A stretch of DNA of 34,523 nt from positions 1 through 34,523 of the forward strand of contig JAQBYJ010000062.1 in NCBI GenBank assembly GCA_027622555.1, read 5' to 3'. Source of the DNA: Verrucomicrobiota bacterium. GTDB lineage: Bacteria; Verrucomicrobiota; Verrucomicrobiia; Opitutales; UBA2995. Both the position numbers and the translations under genes were made by a program. The notes beneath the pieces are model-generated. The model saw only the letters and a list, made by a program, of their open reading frames with translations, made no database searches and had not been told where the DNA came from. Of the stretch, positions 9,747-17,330 are shown one piece after another. How positions within the stretch are numbered: the stretch's first letter is position 1; each line of letters starts with the position of its first letter.

Positions 9747-11794
9747 AGGCATATTGCGCCTCCAGACTAGTCTCCAAAAGGAGAATCACCCGAGAGGTCA
9801 AAGTAGGAAATGTTGGAGTTGGTGATTTAAATCCAATCCGTATCCAGTCAATGACGACCACATTGACTACGGATATAGAGGCTACCGTTAGGCAAACACG
9901 AGCACTTGTTGAAGCTGGGTGCGAAATCGTTCGAATAACCGCACCCAATGTAAATGCAGCGAAGGCATTGGCGGTAATTTCAAAGCGGCTTAAAAATGAC
10001 AAGATCGACGTCCCCTTAGTTGCAGATATCCATTTCTTGCCTTCAGCTGCAATGGAGGCCGTTGAACATGTCGAAAAAGTTCGGGTCAATCCAGGCAACT
10101 ATGCAGATAAGAAAAAATTCCAAATTATCGAGTATTCTGATGATGAATACAGACAGGAACTCGAACGACTCCATGAATCTTTTTCCCCTCTCGTTAAGCG
10201 ATGTAAGATACTAGGAAGATCCATTCGAATTGGAACAAATCATGGGTCGCTCTCAGATAGAATAATGAATCGATTTGGGGATTCTCCGCTTGGCATGGTT
10301 GAATCGGCATTGGAATTTATAAGAATCGCTGAGGCACATAACTTTTACGATATCATACTTTCAATGAAGGCCAGTAACCCCAAGGTAATGATTCAAGCAT
10401 ACCGACTTGCGGTTGCAAAAATGGCCGAAGAAAACATGCAATACCCTCTACACCTTGGAGTAACGGAAGCAGGAGATGGTGAAGATGGGAGAATAAAAAG
10501 CGCAATTGGAATAGGCAGTCTACTGATTGACGGACTAGGAGACACCATAAGAGTCTCTCTAACAGAAGATCCTGTTTACGAGATCCCGGTTGCGCAAGCA
10601 TTAGCCAAGAAAGCCACATATTTGTGGAGTCAAAAAAGCTCAGCTGAGTTACAAATGGACGAGACCGTAGACCCTTTTACATTCACAAGAAGAGAGGTAG
10701 AGAAAATCGATCTAAATCAAAGAATAAAAATATCATCCACTCTCCCGCCAATAGTATTCTTGAAGAACAGGGCGCAAACGGACATTATAAGTTCTGTCGA
10801 TCAGCTCTCTTCATTGACCTCAAATCCATCTAAAATCGACACACCCGTCGAAGGTTGGGTAATTGAGCTCAATGGGATTCAGGATATTGATGAGCTTACA
10901 AGTGCTTATAAAAATTTCGATTCGCAAAAAATACCACTAATTGCCGAATTAGGTAACAACTTAAGTGAAGATCCACGTCCCTTTAACAAATTGATAAATT
11001 TGTTTAAATCTGTGATCTTTGCTATCGAATGGCCACTAATCGGGACAACTGGACTACAAAGATGGGTATCATGGGCCATAGAAAAAAATGCTTCTTTGGC
11101 TATTGGCATATCCGCCGAAGATTTAGCCAAAAACGCGTCATCGTTTATAGAAAAGGAGCTCCCACCCATTATTCTTTTCACTCAATCAAAAAATACAAAC
11201 TCTCATCCGATCGGCGATTACAGACTTTTAATTTCGATACAAAATTCCTTGGGACTAAAATTCCCTGTCTGGCTGCGAGTTAATAAGAAATCCTATATTC
11301 AACAAACCCCAGGATTTTTAAATGACCTTCTAGAAGCTTCGTTGCTTGCCGGAAGCCTCCTTTCTGATGGTTTTGGTGATATACTGAGCATTGAGTGCGT
11401 TGAAAACCAAGAGAATGCCTTATCCTTAGCCTACAATGTCTTGCAAGGAGCAGGTGCAAGAATATCAAAAACTGAGTACGTAGCTTGCCCTAGTTGCGGA
11501 CGGACTCTATTTGATTTACAGAAAACAACTCAAACTATTAGAAAAGCAACAGAGCATTTAAAAGGTGTTAAAATTGCTGTAATGGGGTGCATTGTTAACG
11601 GTCCTGGCGAGATGGCAGATGCCGATTTTGGTTACGTTGGAGGAGCACCAGGAAAAGTGAATCTTTACGTAGGGAAAGATTGCGTTGAATATCACGTCAA
11701 AGAATCGGAAGCAGTGAGCCGCCTAATTGATTTGATCAAAAAAGAAGGTAAGTGGGCTATACCAAAAGAGCCTATGGTTCGAACCAAAGCTTAA
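9743..11794 (+). CDS. ispG: HMB-PP synthase, long three-domain form
   Basis: Converts MEcPP to HMBPP, the penultimate MEP-pathway step, using a [4Fe-4S] cluster. The cluster ligands are C582 and C585 (ACPSCGRTL), C616 and E623 (VMGCIVNGPGE). The N-terminal TIM barrel is clear (IRIQSMTTTLTTD, VRVNPGNYAD, IRIGTNHGSL). At 683 residues it is the long form known from plants, Chlamydiae and Bacteroidetes, with an extra middle domain (about 300-570) absent from the 370-residue E. coli enzyme. The middle part is poorly conserved to my eye, as expected. The start overlaps rseP by four bases. Confidence 0.95.
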   Translation: MKAYCASRLVSKRRITREVKVGNVGVGDLNPIRIQSMTTTLTTDIEATVRQTRALVEAGCEIVRITAPNVNAAKALAVISKRLKNDKIDVPLVADIHFLPSAAMEAVEHVEKVRVNPGNYADKKKFQIIEYSDDEYRQELERLHESFSPLVKRCKILGRSIRIGTNHGSLSDRIMNRFGDSPLGMVESALEFIRIAEAHNFYDIILSMKASNPKVMIQAYRLAVAKMAEENMQYPLHLGVTEAGDGEDGRIKSAIGIGSLLIDGLGDTIRVSLTEDPVYEIPVAQALAKKATYLWSQKSSAELQMDETVDPFTFTRREVEKIDLNQRIKISSTLPPIVFLKNRAQTDIISSVDQLSSLTSNPSKIDTPVEGWVIELNGIQDIDELTSAYKNFDSQKIPLIAELGNNLSEDPRPFNKLINLFKSVIFAIEWPLIGTTGLQRWVSWAIEKNASLAIGISAEDLAKNASSFIEKELPPIILFTQSKNTNSHPIGDYRLLISIQNSLGLKFPVWLRVNKKSYIQQTPGFLNDLLEASLLAGSLLSDGFGDILSIECVENQENALSLAYNVLQGAGARISKTEYVACPSCGRTLFDLQKTTQTIRKATEHLKGVKIAVMGCIVNGPGEMADADFGYVGGAPGKVNLYVGKDCVEYHVKESEAVSRLIDLIKKEGKWAIPKEPMVRTKA

Positions 11795-11840
11795 CCATTA
11801 ATTTCTCGCTTCTTTCTAAATCAAACCATTCCTTATAGAA

Positions 11841-12581
11841 ATGGAGAGAAACGATACATTCGAAAGGCCGGACGGTCGCAAAATCGACGAATTAAGGGAA
11901 ATAACTTTTATTAAAAATTTTGCCCCTCACGCAACAGGGTCTGTTTTATGTTCTTTTGGAAATACAAAAGTAATTTGTGCTGCAACCATTGAGGAAGGAA
12001 TTCCAAGATGGATGAAATCTCAAGGCGTAAAAGGAGGTTGGACCACAGCAGAATATTCGATGCTTCCCTACTCGACTCTGGACAGGAAATCACGTGATAT
12101 TTCTAGAGGCAAACAAGATGGTCGAACCGTAGAAATACAGAGATTGATCGGTAGGTCGCTGAGGGCCGTTATAGATTTACAGAAATTAGGGGAAAGAACT
12201 TTATGGATTGATTGCGATGTTTTACAAGCAGATGGTGGAACAAGAACGGCCTCGATTACAGGAGCTTACGTCGCTAGCAAACTTGCATTTGCAAAACTAA
12301 TTGATCAGGGACTGATTACCGAGGACCCATTTACAGATTCAATCGCAGCAATTTCTGTCGGAATCTATAAAGATAAGGAAATATTGGATTTAAATTACCC
12401 TGAAGACAAAGATGCGTCCGTAGATTTTAACGTGGTCATCACGGGAAGTGGAAACTTTGTCGAAGTACAAGGAACAGGTGAAGAAGCGGTATTTACTCGA
12501 TCACAACTCGATAGCATGTTGGAGCTAGCAGGATTGGGATGTGTGAAAATTTCTAAGATTCAAGATAAAGCTCTGATTTAA
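11841..12581 (+). CDS. rph: Ribonuclease PH
   Basis: A phosphorolytic 3'-5' exoribonuclease that trims tRNA 3' ends. The 246-residue protein shows the full family pattern: RPDGRKIDELR at the N-terminus, GSVLCSFGNTKVICAATIE, the phosphate-site region QRLIGRSLRAV, DVLQADGGTRTASITGAY, and near the end VEVQGTGEEAVFTR. It follows ispG by 46 bases and is the last gene of the plus-strand run. No plus-strand terminator with a T-tract is seen after it: the hairpin at 12633-12668 has its T-run on the minus strand. Confidence 0.95.
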   Translation: MERNDTFERPDGRKIDELREITFIKNFAPHATGSVLCSFGNTKVICAATIEEGIPRWMKSQGVKGGWTTAEYSMLPYSTLDRKSRDISRGKQDGRTVEIQRLIGRSLRAVIDLQKLGERTLWIDCDVLQADGGTRTASITGAYVASKLAFAKLIDQGLITEDPFTDSIAAISVGIYKDKEILDLNYPEDKDASVDFNVVITGSGNFVEVQGTGEEAVFTRSQLDSMLELAGLGCVKISKIQDKALI

Positions 12582-12624
12582 GAGATTTTGTTGCACACGG
12601 AGATCAAACGTCGATATCTACGTA

Positions 12625-12668
12625 CAAAAAAAGGCGGGAAAGAACCCCCTCATGATTCCTTACCCGCC
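12625..12668 (-). terminator. Minus-strand intrinsic terminator in an otherwise gene-free spacer
   Basis: Read on the minus strand, GGCGGG (12668-12663) pairs with CCCGCC (12638-12633). The inner arms continue the stem (AAG with CTT, then AATC with GGTT, one bulged G and one T-T mismatch), and seven or more T follow at once (12632 downward). This is a textbook Rho-independent terminator, but no annotated minus-strand gene feeds it. The next minus-strand gene upstream has its own terminator at 15607. Confidence 0.75.
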
Positions 12669-12719
12669 ATCTCTGAGCCATGCAGTCAGCTTGGGTCGAG
12701 AAAACATTTCTGTTTTCAT
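12660..12719 (-). CDS. Candidate 19-residue small ORF ahead of the minus-strand terminator
   Basis: On the minus strand an ATG at 12719-12717 opens a 19-codon frame, MKTEMFSRPKLTAWLRDGG, whose stop codon lies inside the left arm of the terminator stem. The peptide is basic with an aromatic C-terminal half and is not repetitive. No strong ribosome-binding site precedes it (the sequence ahead is ACGAACGAAGC then an AT stretch), so the unit could instead be a non-coding small RNA. I know of no family for it. Whether it is translated is open. Confidence 0.35.
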   Translation of the reverse strand: MKTEMFSRPKLTAWLRDGG

Positions 12720-12823
12720 ATTTTAATTAGCTTCGTTCGTGCCAATAATATCTGCCTAGCCGTAAAGAACTTGTTAACAATAAGATATAAAAGATAAAAA
12801 AATGAGAATTACATAATGCTAAT

Positions 12824-12889
12824 TAAGTGCATTATTATTGCTTTTTTGATACTTTAAACCATATTTTTATCTTATTTAAGATGCACTTA
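12824..12889. repeat. Inverted repeat TAAGTGCAT / ATGCACTTA
   Basis: Two perfect 9-base arms (12824-12832 and 12881-12889) flank 48 very AT-rich bases. It lies upstream of the minus-strand small transcript candidate and 250 bases before the acyltransferase. It could be a pair of regulator half-sites, a weak stem, or the ends of a tiny miniature element. Nothing else supports one over another. Confidence 0.4.
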
Positions 12890-13059
12890 CATCGCATAAC
12901 CGTAATTGAACTGAGAATTTAATGAGAAAACAAGAATAAGCAAACTTTCAACATATACATATCAATTTGATTTTTTTTTGGATCTACAAATTGCCAAAAT
13001 CACGAAATTGTAACTCAAATAACCCACTAAACTCCTTTAATCTCATAAAAGCTTCAAGG

Positions 13060-13065
13060 TATAAT
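13060..13065 (+). promoter_or_regulatory. Candidate -10 box TATAAT for the acyltransferase gene
   Basis: A perfect TATAAT lies 81 bases before the ATG at 13147, in an AT-rich leader. The -35 area at the right distance (TTTAAT/TTAATC, near 13036-13042) is poor. A transcript would start near 13072 and carry a leader of about 75 bases. Confidence 0.35.
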
Positions 13066-13146
13066 CAATTAAGACGATGGAAATAGAAATTGTAGGTTGA
13101 TTTGAATTTCACCCTATTCGATTCTGGGTAATCAGAAAAAAATACT

Positions 13147-13959
13147 ATGCGCTTCCAATTAGATTACCCACCAATTTACGATAACTATCAAACTAGAAAC
13201 GAACATCTAACTTGGTTTAGTAGGACTTTCCCTTCTTTAGCATTTTACAAAAGGATGTCAGCAGTTGTCATGCGAGGCGCTGAATTGGCCAAAAAAGACA
13301 TGTATTCTGATAAAGAATGGTGCACAAGCAGTTTTAATATTTTGCGAGCCATTGAATCAATCGGGACAAAGGTAACAATCGAAAACTTAAAACTTACCCT
13401 GGATCTAAAGGAACCATCAGTGATCGTAGGCAATCACATGAGCACCCTAGAGACTTTCTTGCTTCCGTACATGCTAAGCCCTCATATGAAAGTCACATTC
13501 GTAATAAAAGAGGCTCTCGTTTCATACCCTATTTTCAAACACATCATGATTTCCAGGAATCCGATTATTGTTGGACGAGAAAGTCCAAAAAAAGACTTCA
13601 TTAAAGTTTTAAGTGAAGGAGTTAATCGAATAAAGGAAGGATATACTGTAATTGTTTTTCCACAAACAACTCGGATGAAAGTATTTGAGAAATCCAAATT
13701 TAACTCGATAGGAATTAAATTGGCAAAAAGAGCAAACGTACCAGTTATCCCTCTAGCACTTAAAACGGATTGCTGGAGAAACGGAAAAATTATAAAAGAT
13801 TTCGGAAAAATTGATCCAAGAAAATCTGTCCATTTTAAATTCGGAACACCTCTCAAAATTGAAGATAATGGGAAGAATCAACAAGAATCAGTGATTAAAC
13901 ATATTGAAGATTGCTTATCCCAATGGACTGATAGAATACCTGCCTTAGAAGAAAAATAA
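13147..13959 (+). CDS. PlsC-like acyltransferase with altered catalytic motifs
   Basis: A 270-residue member of the lysophospholipid acyltransferase family. The family's HX4D motif reads H97-MSTL-E102 (VGNHMSTLET), Glu in place of Asp, and the substrate-binding FPEGTR block reads FPQTTR (171-176). Further family features are the PIIVGRESPKKD stretch and VPVIPLALKTD after the second motif. The changed residues suggest an altered acceptor or rate, not necessarily loss of function, since the fold motifs are well kept. No transmembrane segment is obvious. It stands apart from the rph operon behind an AT-rich spacer with its own -10 box, and is followed after 75 bases by a membrane protein on the same strand. 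Acylation of a lyso-lipid or lipid A-like acceptor is the likely role. Confidence 0.75.
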   Translation: MRFQLDYPPIYDNYQTRNEHLTWFSRTFPSLAFYKRMSAVVMRGAELAKKDMYSDKEWCTSSFNILRAIESIGTKVTIENLKLTLDLKEPSVIVGNHMSTLETFLLPYMLSPHMKVTFVIKEALVSYPIFKHIMISRNPIIVGRESPKKDFIKVLSEGVNRIKEGYTVIVFPQTTRMKVFEKSKFNSIGIKLAKRANVPVIPLALKTDCWRNGKIIKDFGKIDPRKSVHFKFGTPLKIEDNGKNQQESVIKHIEDCLSQWTDRIPALEEK

Positions 13960-14034
13960 AGATCTAATCAGACAATTCCAGCATTTGTTTTTGCTTAAGA
14001 AGCCTTTTCCAATTAGATTTAAACCCAAAATATC

Positions 14035-15192
14035 ATGCCAGAAAACCCGAATATTAAGCTACCAAAATGGCCCTTTCTAGGCGGCGACATAGTCCTAATA
14101 ATACTCGCATGCTTTATAGTAATCGCATCACCAAAGCCCATGTCAGCAATAGGAATATTTGCATGTGCTTTAAGCGTAATTCTGGGAATGCTAGTCTACC
14201 TCACCCCATTTATCGTTGATCATCTAACACAGCAGCAGCGAATTAGGCTCAAACAGGTAAAAGCAGAAGAGACACTATTAAGAGCCGTTGAGCTAGCATC
14301 AGATTTGCTGAATCGAACAGAAACGATACACTCTGAGTTAATGAAGGGAGTTCTTACCGTTAAACAAGTGCCAGCCAAACTGGATGAGAAGGCCGCAGAA
14401 TTCATGGAGATATTCAACACAGGCAAACTCTCAACAGCCGTCACGGAATTAAGGAATTTACTCGAAAGAGTGGAAACATATCAGTCCACAACAACTAGTG
14501 ATTCTGAAAAATCGATTTATCTATCTTCAATCAAAAAAGTATTTGAATCTCAAAGTTCAAAATTAGAGATCCAGATCAAATCTCTTCATAAGGCAGTCGA
14601 TTCAGAATTCGCCGAATTAAGACATGAAATTCTAGAACATCAAAACAAAGTGGAATACAAACAACCCTCACGGAAGGACAAGCCATTTAAAGAAGAGCCA
14701 TCAGACGAACTGAAACCTGATGTTTATTCAACCCATCTAAAGACTGTAAAAAAACAAAGCGCTGAGTCATTAGAAAAATCACTCCCAGATCAGGAAGAAA
14801 AAGAGGAATCAATTTTCGCAATTACGGAGGATCAAATTGATGAGATTAATGTGGAGGAACTGAATCAAAAGTTGGATGACATCGAGAAAAACTCAAGCCC
14901 ATCGACTTCAATCAGTTCCTCTAGGCAAAATATTGACGGTGCCACCAGGCTCTTAGTTGGCGCTTTTATTGGAATTTCTAATAAACTCTACATTCGCGGT
15001 GAAGGACCTGGCCTTGATTGGGACAAAGGAGTTCCAATGGAACTAGTAGGAATCGGAAAGTGGGAATGGAAGGCCTATGATGCAAACACAGCAGTCAGAT
15101 GCAAAATACTTATAAATGACGAACAATGGACCGATTCTGAAGACATTGTCATAGAAGCGAATACAACAGTTGAAACGACGGCTTCTTTTTAA
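14035..15192 (+). CDS. Membrane-anchored coiled-coil protein with C-terminal beta domain, unknown function
   Basis: I do not recognise a named family. Four parts are visible in the 385 residues. Two hydrophobic helices (about 17-33 and 37-63) anchor it. A long charged helical region (about 65-205, with heptad-like leucines) looks like coiled coil. A very acidic and lysine-rich linker (about 205-295) is probably disordered. A compact C-terminal domain (about 300-385) contains RLLVGAFIGISNKLYIRGEG, a PMELVGIGKWEWKAY segment and a final strand-rich part, resembling carbohydrate-binding or AMPK-like beta modules. The last domain may bind a ligand on the cytoplasmic side if both helices form a hairpin. 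It follows the acyltransferase and may be cotranscribed. A remnant transposase lies just behind it. Confidence 0.6.
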   Translation: MPENPNIKLPKWPFLGGDIVLIILACFIVIASPKPMSAIGIFACALSVILGMLVYLTPFIVDHLTQQQRIRLKQVKAEETLLRAVELASDLLNRTETIHSELMKGVLTVKQVPAKLDEKAAEFMEIFNTGKLSTAVTELRNLLERVETYQSTTTSDSEKSIYLSSIKKVFESQSSKLEIQIKSLHKAVDSEFAELRHEILEHQNKVEYKQPSRKDKPFKEEPSDELKPDVYSTHLKTVKKQSAESLEKSLPDQEEKEESIFAITEDQIDEINVEELNQKLDDIEKNSSPSTSISSSRQNIDGATRLLVGAFIGISNKLYIRGEGPGLDWDKGVPMELVGIGKWEWKAYDANTAVRCKILINDEQWTDSEDIVIEANTTVETTASF

Positions 15193-15220
15193 TTTCGTTC
15201 AATTTATATTCGTGGTATAG

Positions 15221-15499
15221 AATGGAGAGAGGTTCCATCCCAAAGACAGTAGCCATGAAAACATACCCGGAGGCATCCATGTCCTGAGACTTCCTCCATA
15301 CAGTCCGGACCTCAATCCCATTGAAAAACTCTGAGACATGACCCAGGATCATACCTCCAACAAACTCTGGCCATCCATCAAACGTCTCGATCAAGTCATA
15401 ACCCTGTTGCTCAAAGACTGGTGGGAAGATCCCAGAAAAGTAATCCGATTGTTGGAAACAACTGGCACCGCGTTTCTGCAAACCAAAAATTTATCATAA
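15221..15499 (+). pseudogene. Decayed IS630-family transposase, C-terminal fragment
   Basis: A plus-strand frame in phase with position 15290 reads ...IPGGIHVLRLPPYSPDLNPIEKL, then a TGA at 15332, then DMTQDHTSNKLWPSIKRLDQ and on to a TAA at 15497-15499. LPPYSPDLNPIE(K/R)LW is the hallmark of the IS630/Tc1-mariner DDE transposase C-terminus, containing the last catalytic acidic residue, and the TGA stands exactly where Trp (TGG) is expected. The downstream part (LWPSIKRLDQ, LLLKDWWEDPRKVIRLL) also fits the family tail. The N-terminal two thirds are missing: the frame closes upstream at a TAG (15218). The element is therefore dead and old. Confidence 0.8.
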
Positions 15500-15606
15500 C
15501 TAATCTAAAATGGTATAGATGCCAGATAATCTACATCATTTTCCGGTCCAAATCCAGGTGGCAGATTTTGGGACGTTAACGAAGAAATTCAAGAAAACTT
15601 CAATAA

Positions 15607-15642
15607 AACAAAAGGCTCCAAAGTATCATGGAGCCTTTTGTT
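15607..15642. terminator. Bidirectional intrinsic terminator
   Basis: Arms 15607-15620 (AACAAAAGGCTCCA) and 15629-15642 (its exact complement) enclose an 8-base loop. The arms begin with A-rich and end with T-rich sequence, so the hairpin works on either strand. It stands between the membrane-protein gene (+) with its transposase remnant and the secreted repeat protein (-), whose stop is 24 bases away. The same AACAAAAGG/CCTTTTGTT outer stem occurs at 3983-4018. Confidence 0.85.
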
Positions 15643-15665
15643 CAGTGTAAAAGTTGAATCGAGAA

Positions 15666-16475
15666 TTATGGAGCTCCAGCAAAGTCGAAAAGCTCAACAA
15701 CAGCGAAACCAGTAGTGTCATTAACTCCTCTAACAACGACCGAGTAGGATTCATTTTGGGTAAGTCTTACAACCATTGCAGGATCAACCTCAAATTTCGG
15801 AATAAAACCACCGGGGACAGTCCCAACAATTTCTGACTCGTCGTCCTTCCAATCGTTGTTGGTCTTAATTGCAATAAGATCTCCTATTTTAAATAGTTGA
15901 GCCGTTGGATCTGCAAGAAAGTTAGGAATACCAGATGCTTCCAAATCTGGTCCGGCAATTCTTGAGTATATCCCCTGGGAAGCGTCCCCAGCAACTCGAA
16001 ATGAAGCTATGAGAATCTCATCTACTGTCCCTACTAATGCTCTTACCGAAATATTGGTCAATTTGCCAGAATTTGGTTCAGCGGGATCCTTAAATTCATA
16101 GAGTTCTACATTAGCAAAACCAATGGTATCGCCAACTCCTCGAACAATTACAGAGTAGTTACCCGGGTCTGGAAGATTTACCACCATTGCAGGATCAACA
16201 TCAAATTTTGGAACTAGACCGCCGGGAACAACACCTTCAACCTCAAACTGCGTGGTCTTCCAATCGTCATTTGATTTAATTAGCACATTACCATCAACTT
16301 TTCTAAGCTCCATCGTTGGATTCGCAAGAAAGTTTGATATTCCGGCGGCTTCCAAATCTGGTCCACCGACTCTTAAGTATATTCTCAATGGGCCACCATC
16401 TACTCTAAAAGAGGCGATCAGTATCTCATCACCCGTTCCAACAAGTGCACGCGTGGATAGGTTGTTAAATCTTCC
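15666..16475 (-). repeat. Tandem duplication inside a secreted-protein gene, about 411-bp unit
   Basis: The two C-terminal domain copies are still alike in DNA: CCAAATCTGGTCC recurs at 15941 and 16352, GTTGGAT/GTTGGATT at 15904 and 16315, and ACCATTGCAGGATCAAC at 15772 and 16183, each 411 bases apart. One single-codon indel (FRVDGGPLR against FRVAGDASQG) shifts the boundary to 408. The copies fill about 15666-16067 and 16077-16475. Confidence 0.8.
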
Positions 16476-17330
16476 ACTACCGGTAGCAGATGTTGTGGCA
16501 GTAGCAGTTGTATTGTAAGCAGACTGAGAAGGAGGTCTCAAAGCGATAACCCGATATAGGTATGCAGTATTCGAAGCAACAGTACTATCTACAAAAAGAG
16601 TAACTCCAGGAGCTAAAGTATCAAGAATAGTCCAAATTCCAGATCCATTCAGTGATCTTTCAATCCGGTAACCCGTTTCATCAGATGCATTATCAGTCCA
16701 TGTTACATTAAGGGTCAATCCATTAACAGCTGCAGCAATTCCAGTTGGAGCGGCAGGCGGTGTACCCGTGGTGACTCCGTCTGCTAACCCATCGGCTGCA
16801 GGTGTCGTTCCTGTACCTAGTGCAGTCGCATCTGTGGTAATAACTTTTAAATTAATTGCCAATGTTCCATCCGGAGGAGTGACCCACAAATCAGTACCAT
16901 CGAGGTTGGCCGCTGTCACTCGAAACATTCCGTAAGGAACCGCAGCCGCTGATGCGGGTGGATTTGTCAGAGTAAGAGTTGGAAAGAAATAGAGAGCAAG
17001 ATCATCACCTTCAGCCCAATCTCCAGAAAAGCTAATACTTCCTGTTGATCCCAGAAACGCACCAGGGACGTTACCTCCACTAGAAGCAATATTCCAAGCA
17101 GCGACGAGGAAGTCATCTCCTTCAAGAGCCGTACCGGAAGGACCCGAGAAACCAGGCGTCCCTATGTCAGCAACTAAGGCAACCACTCCGGTAGTGGCCA
17201 TATCGAACCCTCCAGGATCTTTGAGCTTCTCGGCTGTTACATTTATTGTTATCGCAGCTGAAAGTTGACTAACTAAGATTGTCACGCTTAGAAGAGAGAA
17301 CAAGCTTAACTTTAGTGTTTTGTGGCTCAT
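15666..17330 (-). CDS. Secreted protein: fibronectin III domain plus two tandem verrucomicrobial repeats
   Basis: A 554-residue exported protein. A signal peptide (KLSLFSLLSVTILVSQLSAA) is followed by a beta-rich N-terminal domain (about 25-185), a fibronectin type III domain (about 190-282, with NVTWTDNASDETGYRIERS), and two copies of a 133-134-residue domain at about 286-418 and 422-554. Each copy holds RALVGTxDEILIASFRV, GPDLEA(A/S)GI-NFLA(N/D)PT and SYSV(I/V)VRGV-DT-GFA-VELF. This domain type is widespread in secreted verrucomicrobial proteins, and its function is not established. The start is supported by the signal peptide. No C-terminal sorting tail is visible. It is followed by a strong terminator and lies 62 bases after another secreted gene, so the two may be expressed together. 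Confidence 0.82.
   Translation of the reverse strand: MSHKTLKLSLFSLLSVTILVSQLSAAITINVTAEKLKDPGGFDMATTGVVALVADIGTPGFSGPSGTALEGDDFLVAAWNIASSGGNVPGAFLGSTGSISFSGDWAEGDDLALYFFPTLTLTNPPASAAAVPYGMFRVTAANLDGTDLWVTPPDGTLAINLKVITTDATALGTGTTPAADGLADGVTTGTPPAAPTGIAAAVNGLTLNVTWTDNASDETGYRIERSLNGSGIWTILDTLAPGVTLFVDSTVASNTAYLYRVIALRPPSQSAYNTTATATTSATGSGRFNNLSTRALVGTGDEILIASFRVDGGPLRIYLRVGGPDLEAAGISNFLANPTMELRKVDGNVLIKSNDDWKTTQFEVEGVVPGGLVPKFDVDPAMVVNLPDPGNYSVIVRGVGDTIGFANVELYEFKDPAEPNSGKLTNISVRALVGTVDEILIASFRVAGDASQGIYSRIAGPDLEASGIPNFLADPTAQLFKIGDLIAIKTNNDWKDDESEIVGTVPGGFIPKFEVDPAMVVRLTQNESYSVVVRGVNDTTGFAVVELFDFAGAP

Follow-up and report, generated by a model that had tools for sequence, protein, structure and literature searches.

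On the minus strand of the window, the 34,523-nt stretch of DNA analysed here, which stems from an uncultured Opitutales bacterium, positions 12626-12717 probably constitute a single-copy, self-transcribed sRNA gene of approximately 92 nt, composed of hairpins and an intrinsic terminator and specifying an RNA that most likely acts in trans, a reading to which, judging from sequence, we assign a probability of about two in three. The gene lies between its convergent neighbor rph, which encodes RNase PH (11841-12581, plus strand; Pfam PF01138 and PF03725), and an acyltransferase gene on the other flank (13147-13959, plus strand; Pfam PF01553). Its extent was derived from a conserved block and the fold; the 3' end is given by a T tract, and the 5' end would lie at about 12717. 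The earlier note had proposed that a short independent RNA, either a regulatory RNA or that of a small-protein gene, is made opposite the end of rph. The existence of such an independent RNA appears strongly supported by genus-wide conservation, the sharp edges of the conserved block, synteny and a strand-specific terminator, and of the two alternatives, the regulatory RNA is favored and the small protein disfavored. Computation established the conservation, synteny and fold of the locus and the absence of a conserved 19-codon gene.

Inspection of the sequence revealed a GC-rich hairpin (GGCGGG...CCCGCC) at 12668-12633 of the minus strand, with 12 positions per arm and 98.3% of cells paired, and behind it a T7 tract at 12632-12626, both as previously described. 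In all five genomes carrying the RNA, the hairpin is combined with a T tract on the minus strand only, and the tail contains at least four T; since the plus strand of the hairpin lacks a T tract, the terminator serves the minus strand. A strict terminator scan reported the hairpin at 12633-12668 merely as partial, with 5 pairs. Over positions 10000-17000, the terminator scan placed 12 of 12 hits on the minus strand, with 5.9 expected in total, and the genes up to 15.2 kb are mostly located on the plus strand, opposite to all 12 terminator-like hits; this one-sided distribution is probably an effect of base composition. The claim that no minus-strand gene feeds the terminator up to ~15.6 kb also held: only two ORFs of at least 80 aa exist on this strand between 12.7 and 15.66 kb, neither of which feeds it, one (13482-13856) being antisense to the acyltransferase gene and the other (15149-15481) sitting, by eye, within a transposase-like remnant. 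The plus strand at 15149-15510 resembles, again by eye, a decayed transposase fragment (IS630-like).

These data raise the question of how widely the locus is distributed. A homology search with positions 12560-12900 against 53 genomes matched the block 12622-12750, whole or mostly, in four of the five other genomes of the genus (E 1e-24 to 1e-36), and outside the genus it gave no match better than E 0.002. A covariance model (R1) detected the RNA in five of the six genus genomes at E below 1e-21, with a single copy in each; the RNA-bearing records include the Opitutales/Verrucomicrobia MAGs KW1-S08_24, UBA2995 and S4_Bin_Bin_94_1. The only genus genome without the RNA, G004, is an 88% complete assembly with no Rph match either, so that the assembly does not contain the locus. 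In the five others (G000, G001, G002, G003 and G005), the RNA gene is located downstream of rph and oriented towards it. No credible paralogue was found within the source genome, and phage and plasmid collections returned merely short matches (E about 0.1).

No credible copy was detected outside the genus in an order sample of 372 genomes, a class sample of 384 genomes or the GTDB contigs. A pattern scan of the GTDB contigs yielded 41 stretches, and the covariance model was then applied to all 42 stretches, including a viral one; three were strongly confirmed, all of them genus genomes already known, and two further stretches scored 18.4 and 16.1 bits. In the order sample, 12 of the 372 genomes matched, including seven outside the genus that carried nine matches; eight of these nine loci, inspected as alignments, fit mainly the terminator stem, and we regard the matches as chance or look-alike terminators. 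The sole non-self match in the class sample (G410) falls within an ORF of 482 aa on the opposite strand and was judged to be due to chance. In another family of the order (f19), terminator-like hairpins GGCGGGCGAG..GGGGTTCTCGCCCGCC occur at several loci (L027, L028, L030, L033 and L035), their 3' arm being nearly identical to that of the RNA and the rest of the RNA being absent. In two genomes of the sister genus, the acyltransferase gene directly follows rph and leaves no room for the RNA, which was therefore either gained in the present genus or lost there.

To place the conservation on a scale, the RNA can be compared with its neighbor. Over all ten genome pairs, 64-72 of the 73 nt of the core are identical (88-99%), and fourfold-degenerate sites of rph are only 25-34% identical in nine of the ten pairs, in which they are thus saturated; the Rph proteins of the same nine pairs share 72-79% identity. 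The closest pair, G001 and G005, shows 64% identity at the fourfold sites and 97% in Rph. Identity collapses on both sides just outside 12622-12750. The conservation of the RNA is well above the neutral level, and coding does not account for it. Moreover, the stems are constant letter for letter at such divergence, which folding alone does not explain. One conceivable alternative is a sigma-54-dependent sRNA frozen in sequence over its whole length, the loop and stem arms of which would pair with several conserved targets or bind a dedicated protein, and in which the UCAUGA palindrome of the loop could also allow kissing of two RNA copies; we consider this version rather unlikely.

The sRNA preferred here would usually form three hairpins, with the transcript ended by the intrinsic terminator. 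Folding of 12626-12717 gave -35.5 kcal/mol (z -3.46; one of 200 shuffles as good), the z values of the 92-nt folds ranged from -2.76 to -3.59 across the five sequences, and the alifold energy was -30.2 versus a column-shuffled mean of -18.7 (sd 3.0), with none of 200 shuffles as low. The 5' hairpin (12717-12700, GAAAAC...GTTTTC), whose helix is 80% paired, forms in four of the five sequences and is absent in G003. The central hairpin (12697-12675, GACCCA-A-GC-UGACU-GC-A-UGGCUC) belongs to the MFE structure of four sequences and forms partly in the fifth; its helix is 90% paired, and a C.C mismatch became A-U in G003 with both sides changed. In the terminator helix, one G-C to A-U double change is seen and ten of the twelve pairs never vary; the loop is an invariant 12-nt sequence, AUCAUGAGGGGG (12645-12656). 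These paired changes agree with the terminator and central helices. The covariation score, obtained from five sequences with one double change among standard pairs, was equalled by 94 of 500 shuffles, and covariation alone is therefore no proof of the fold.

Another important question is whether the block encodes a small protein, as the earlier note considered. The 19-codon ATG frame upstream of the terminator is present (12719-12660, minus strand), encoding MKTEMFSRPKLTAWLRDGG, and its stop (TAA, 12662-12660) is located in the 5' arm of the hairpin, as had been stated. Its start codon is ATG in two of the five genomes (G000 and G001) and TTG in G005; the frame is shifted upstream in G002 and out of frame there, and G003 has no counterpart. 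The frame was thus judged incidental, and a small-protein gene of 19 codons is disfavored: the hairpin is conserved in the close relatives, whereas this ORF is not. A 15-codon frame, MFSRPKLTAWLRDGG, with an ATG or TTG start, remains open together with its stop (TAA or TGA) in all five genomes, but it is very improbable that this peptide is made and underlies the conservation. Its first, second and third codon positions carry 3, 2 and 5 changes, respectively, four residues are altered, and two of the replacements, P-to-T and L-to-F in G003, represent the two sides of the new A-U pair. Beyond the stop, the loop and the 3' arm stay conserved, a ribosome-binding site is not visible by eye in four of the five genomes, and the longer 19-codon start is itself not conserved.

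The surroundings of the RNA gene differ among the genomes. The same-strand gene upstream is OppA-like in G001 and G005 (identified by Pfam as SBP_bac_5 in the former and by sequence likeness in the latter) and encodes a transposase with an rve domain in G002, and none was seen in G000 and G003. In these two genomes, the OppA-like gene separates the RNA from the acyltransferase gene (L013:10403-12122 and L016:1690-3081, both on the minus strand); record L016 ends inside it, the frame in G001 is split in two, and the gene is absent at this position of the window. Retention of the RNA without any upstream gene in G000 and G003 argues for an independent unit. The presence of the OppA-like gene in G001 and G005, as well as the lack of any gene and of the RNA in the rph-acyltransferase spacer of the sister genus, would fit the 3' end of an upstream oppA-type transcript, which would make the RNA a 3'-UTR-derived sRNA or a mere terminator. 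We consider this origin improbable, because G000 and G003 lack such a gene upstream, G002 has a transposase instead, and a plain terminator would not hold the loop and the preceding nucleotides at 88-99%. Likewise, the RNA gene and rph are convergent in all five genomes and the position opposite the end of rph is correct, but there is very little to suggest an antisense RNA acting on the rph messenger: the rph coding sequence is not overlapped, the distance between the block and the rph stop is 41 nt here and 154-222 nt in the other four genomes, and the DNA between rph and the block is not conserved.

As regards transcription of an independent sRNA gene, the only conserved sequence upstream of the 5' hairpin is the element TTGGCACGAACGAAGCT (12745-12729, minus strand; four of the five genomes). 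In the form TTGGCACGA-NNN-WAGCT, it carries a correctly spaced -24 GG and -12 GC in these four genomes and could be a sigma-54-like -24/-12 promoter of the RNA gene, an interpretation that is tentative and that we treat as a lead only; the element may alternatively represent an operator or a short 5' stem. Under the promoter reading, transcription would begin at ~12718, where the 5' hairpin has its first base, and such a start would explain why the stretch between the element and the hairpin varies. G003 lacks both the promoter-like element and the 5' hairpin, yet it has rpoN. The pattern YTGGCACGNNNNWWGCW, which was fitted after the fact, matches once in the window, with a mean of 0.02 in shuffles. 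The -14 base of the element is A, not T, so that AGC stands in place of TGC at -12 in all four genomes. A sigma-54 PSSM derived from 29 Salmonella sites (minimum known score 16.1) gave scores of 11.4 (G000), 14.9 (G001), 5.9 (G002) and 4.0 (G005), all below the Salmonella minimum; of 314,800 background positions, 10, 1 (the site itself), 80 and 144, respectively, scored as high. The genome contains 10 copies of the strict site TGGCACGNNNNNNGCW versus 19 of its reversed control, and the nine copies elsewhere in the genome lie inside ORFs; the lack of genome-wide enrichment counts against leaning on the motif. The genome encodes one RpoN, and seven of the ten listed sigma-54 activator-domain matches are at E below 1e-20.

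A precedent exists in GlmY/GlmZ of Salmonella, sRNA genes preceded by sigma-54 promoters according to PMC3844500. Should the element be a promoter, the likeness would consist of the -24 GG and -12 GC of sigma-54 driving an sRNA gene, whereas the gene context is unrelated, the -12 TGC has A for T in four of four genomes here, and the PSSM scores of 4.0-14.9 contrast with the minimum of 16.1 for the 29 Salmonella sites. For sigma-70, the best promoter match was no better than in base-shuffled sequence in any of the five genomes. This result bears on a possible longer RNA of ~115-120 nt, initiated near 12740 by a sigma-70-type promoter, in which TTGGC-N9-GCTAA would form a 5' stem-loop. AT-rich hexamers do occur immediately upstream, and the outer stem bases co-vary in G002 (GTGGC...GCTAC), but the stem is complete in only two of four genomes, the sigma-70 matches do not rise above the shuffles and no conservation exists upstream of the element; we thus hold the longer RNA to be unlikely.

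The ~92-nt RNA was also compared with known RNAs. The whole window contains no Rfam match at the gathering threshold and nothing credible at a permissive one; the only sub-threshold match on the minus strand, to the Salmonella sRNA STnc361 (RF02062; 19.7 bits versus a gathering score of 80, E 2.1), was attributed to chance. A search of open-licence papers for sRNAs and structured RNAs of Opitutales and Verrucomicrobia brought up nothing on this RNA. Like trans-encoded intergenic bacterial sRNAs, it is intergenic and single-copy, has its own terminator, compact hairpins and a lineage-specific distribution, and contains no conserved ORF; it differs from them in lacking an Rfam match and in the unusually strict conservation of its stem sequence. 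We infer trans action from this kind of RNA, not from a direct result. It would involve base pairing with mRNAs via segments that are both conserved and unpaired, chiefly the loop AUCAUGAGGGGG and the AGAGAU linker, and with the loop as a seed, target sites would be complementary to AUGAGGGGG.

Exact-seed searches with two seeds in the six genus genomes, controlled by reversed sequences, and an oppA pairing-energy search established no target. The 11-nt loop complement CCCCCTCATGA gave eight hits in the six genomes, five of which are the RNA locus itself, the three others facing three control hits; the second seed, TGARCCATGCAG, gave four non-self hits in unrelated places versus one control hit. 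In G001 and G005, two of the CCCCCTCATGA hits coincide in part with the start codon of the same lipoprotein-like gene. The start region of this gene in G005 (L104:1501-1520, CACCCCCCTCATGAAG) contains the exact 11-nt loop complement, and the G001 gene is decayed. This candidate was rejected, because G000 and G001 have only a fragment of the gene and no copy was found in G002, G003 or G004. For these two exact seeds, no gene is common to the hits in the six genomes beyond the two sister genomes. Pairing with oppA was likewise dismissed, since its energy equals the background, with 42.5% of 630 windows as good.

The best reading of these results is that of an undescribed, genus-restricted regulatory sRNA that forms a new family of an established type. 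A table in PMC9029176 lists 8 sRNA families on record for the Planctomycetes-Verrucomicrobia-Chlamydiae group versus 345 for Proteobacteria. Comparison alone here yields a well-bounded RNA gene, the size, strand and 3' end of which are predicted and can be tested in metatranscriptomes. The constraint on this RNA gene is far stronger than that on the neighboring protein gene, and the strictness of its stem sequence and its possible sigma-54 control are the points that specialists would want explained.
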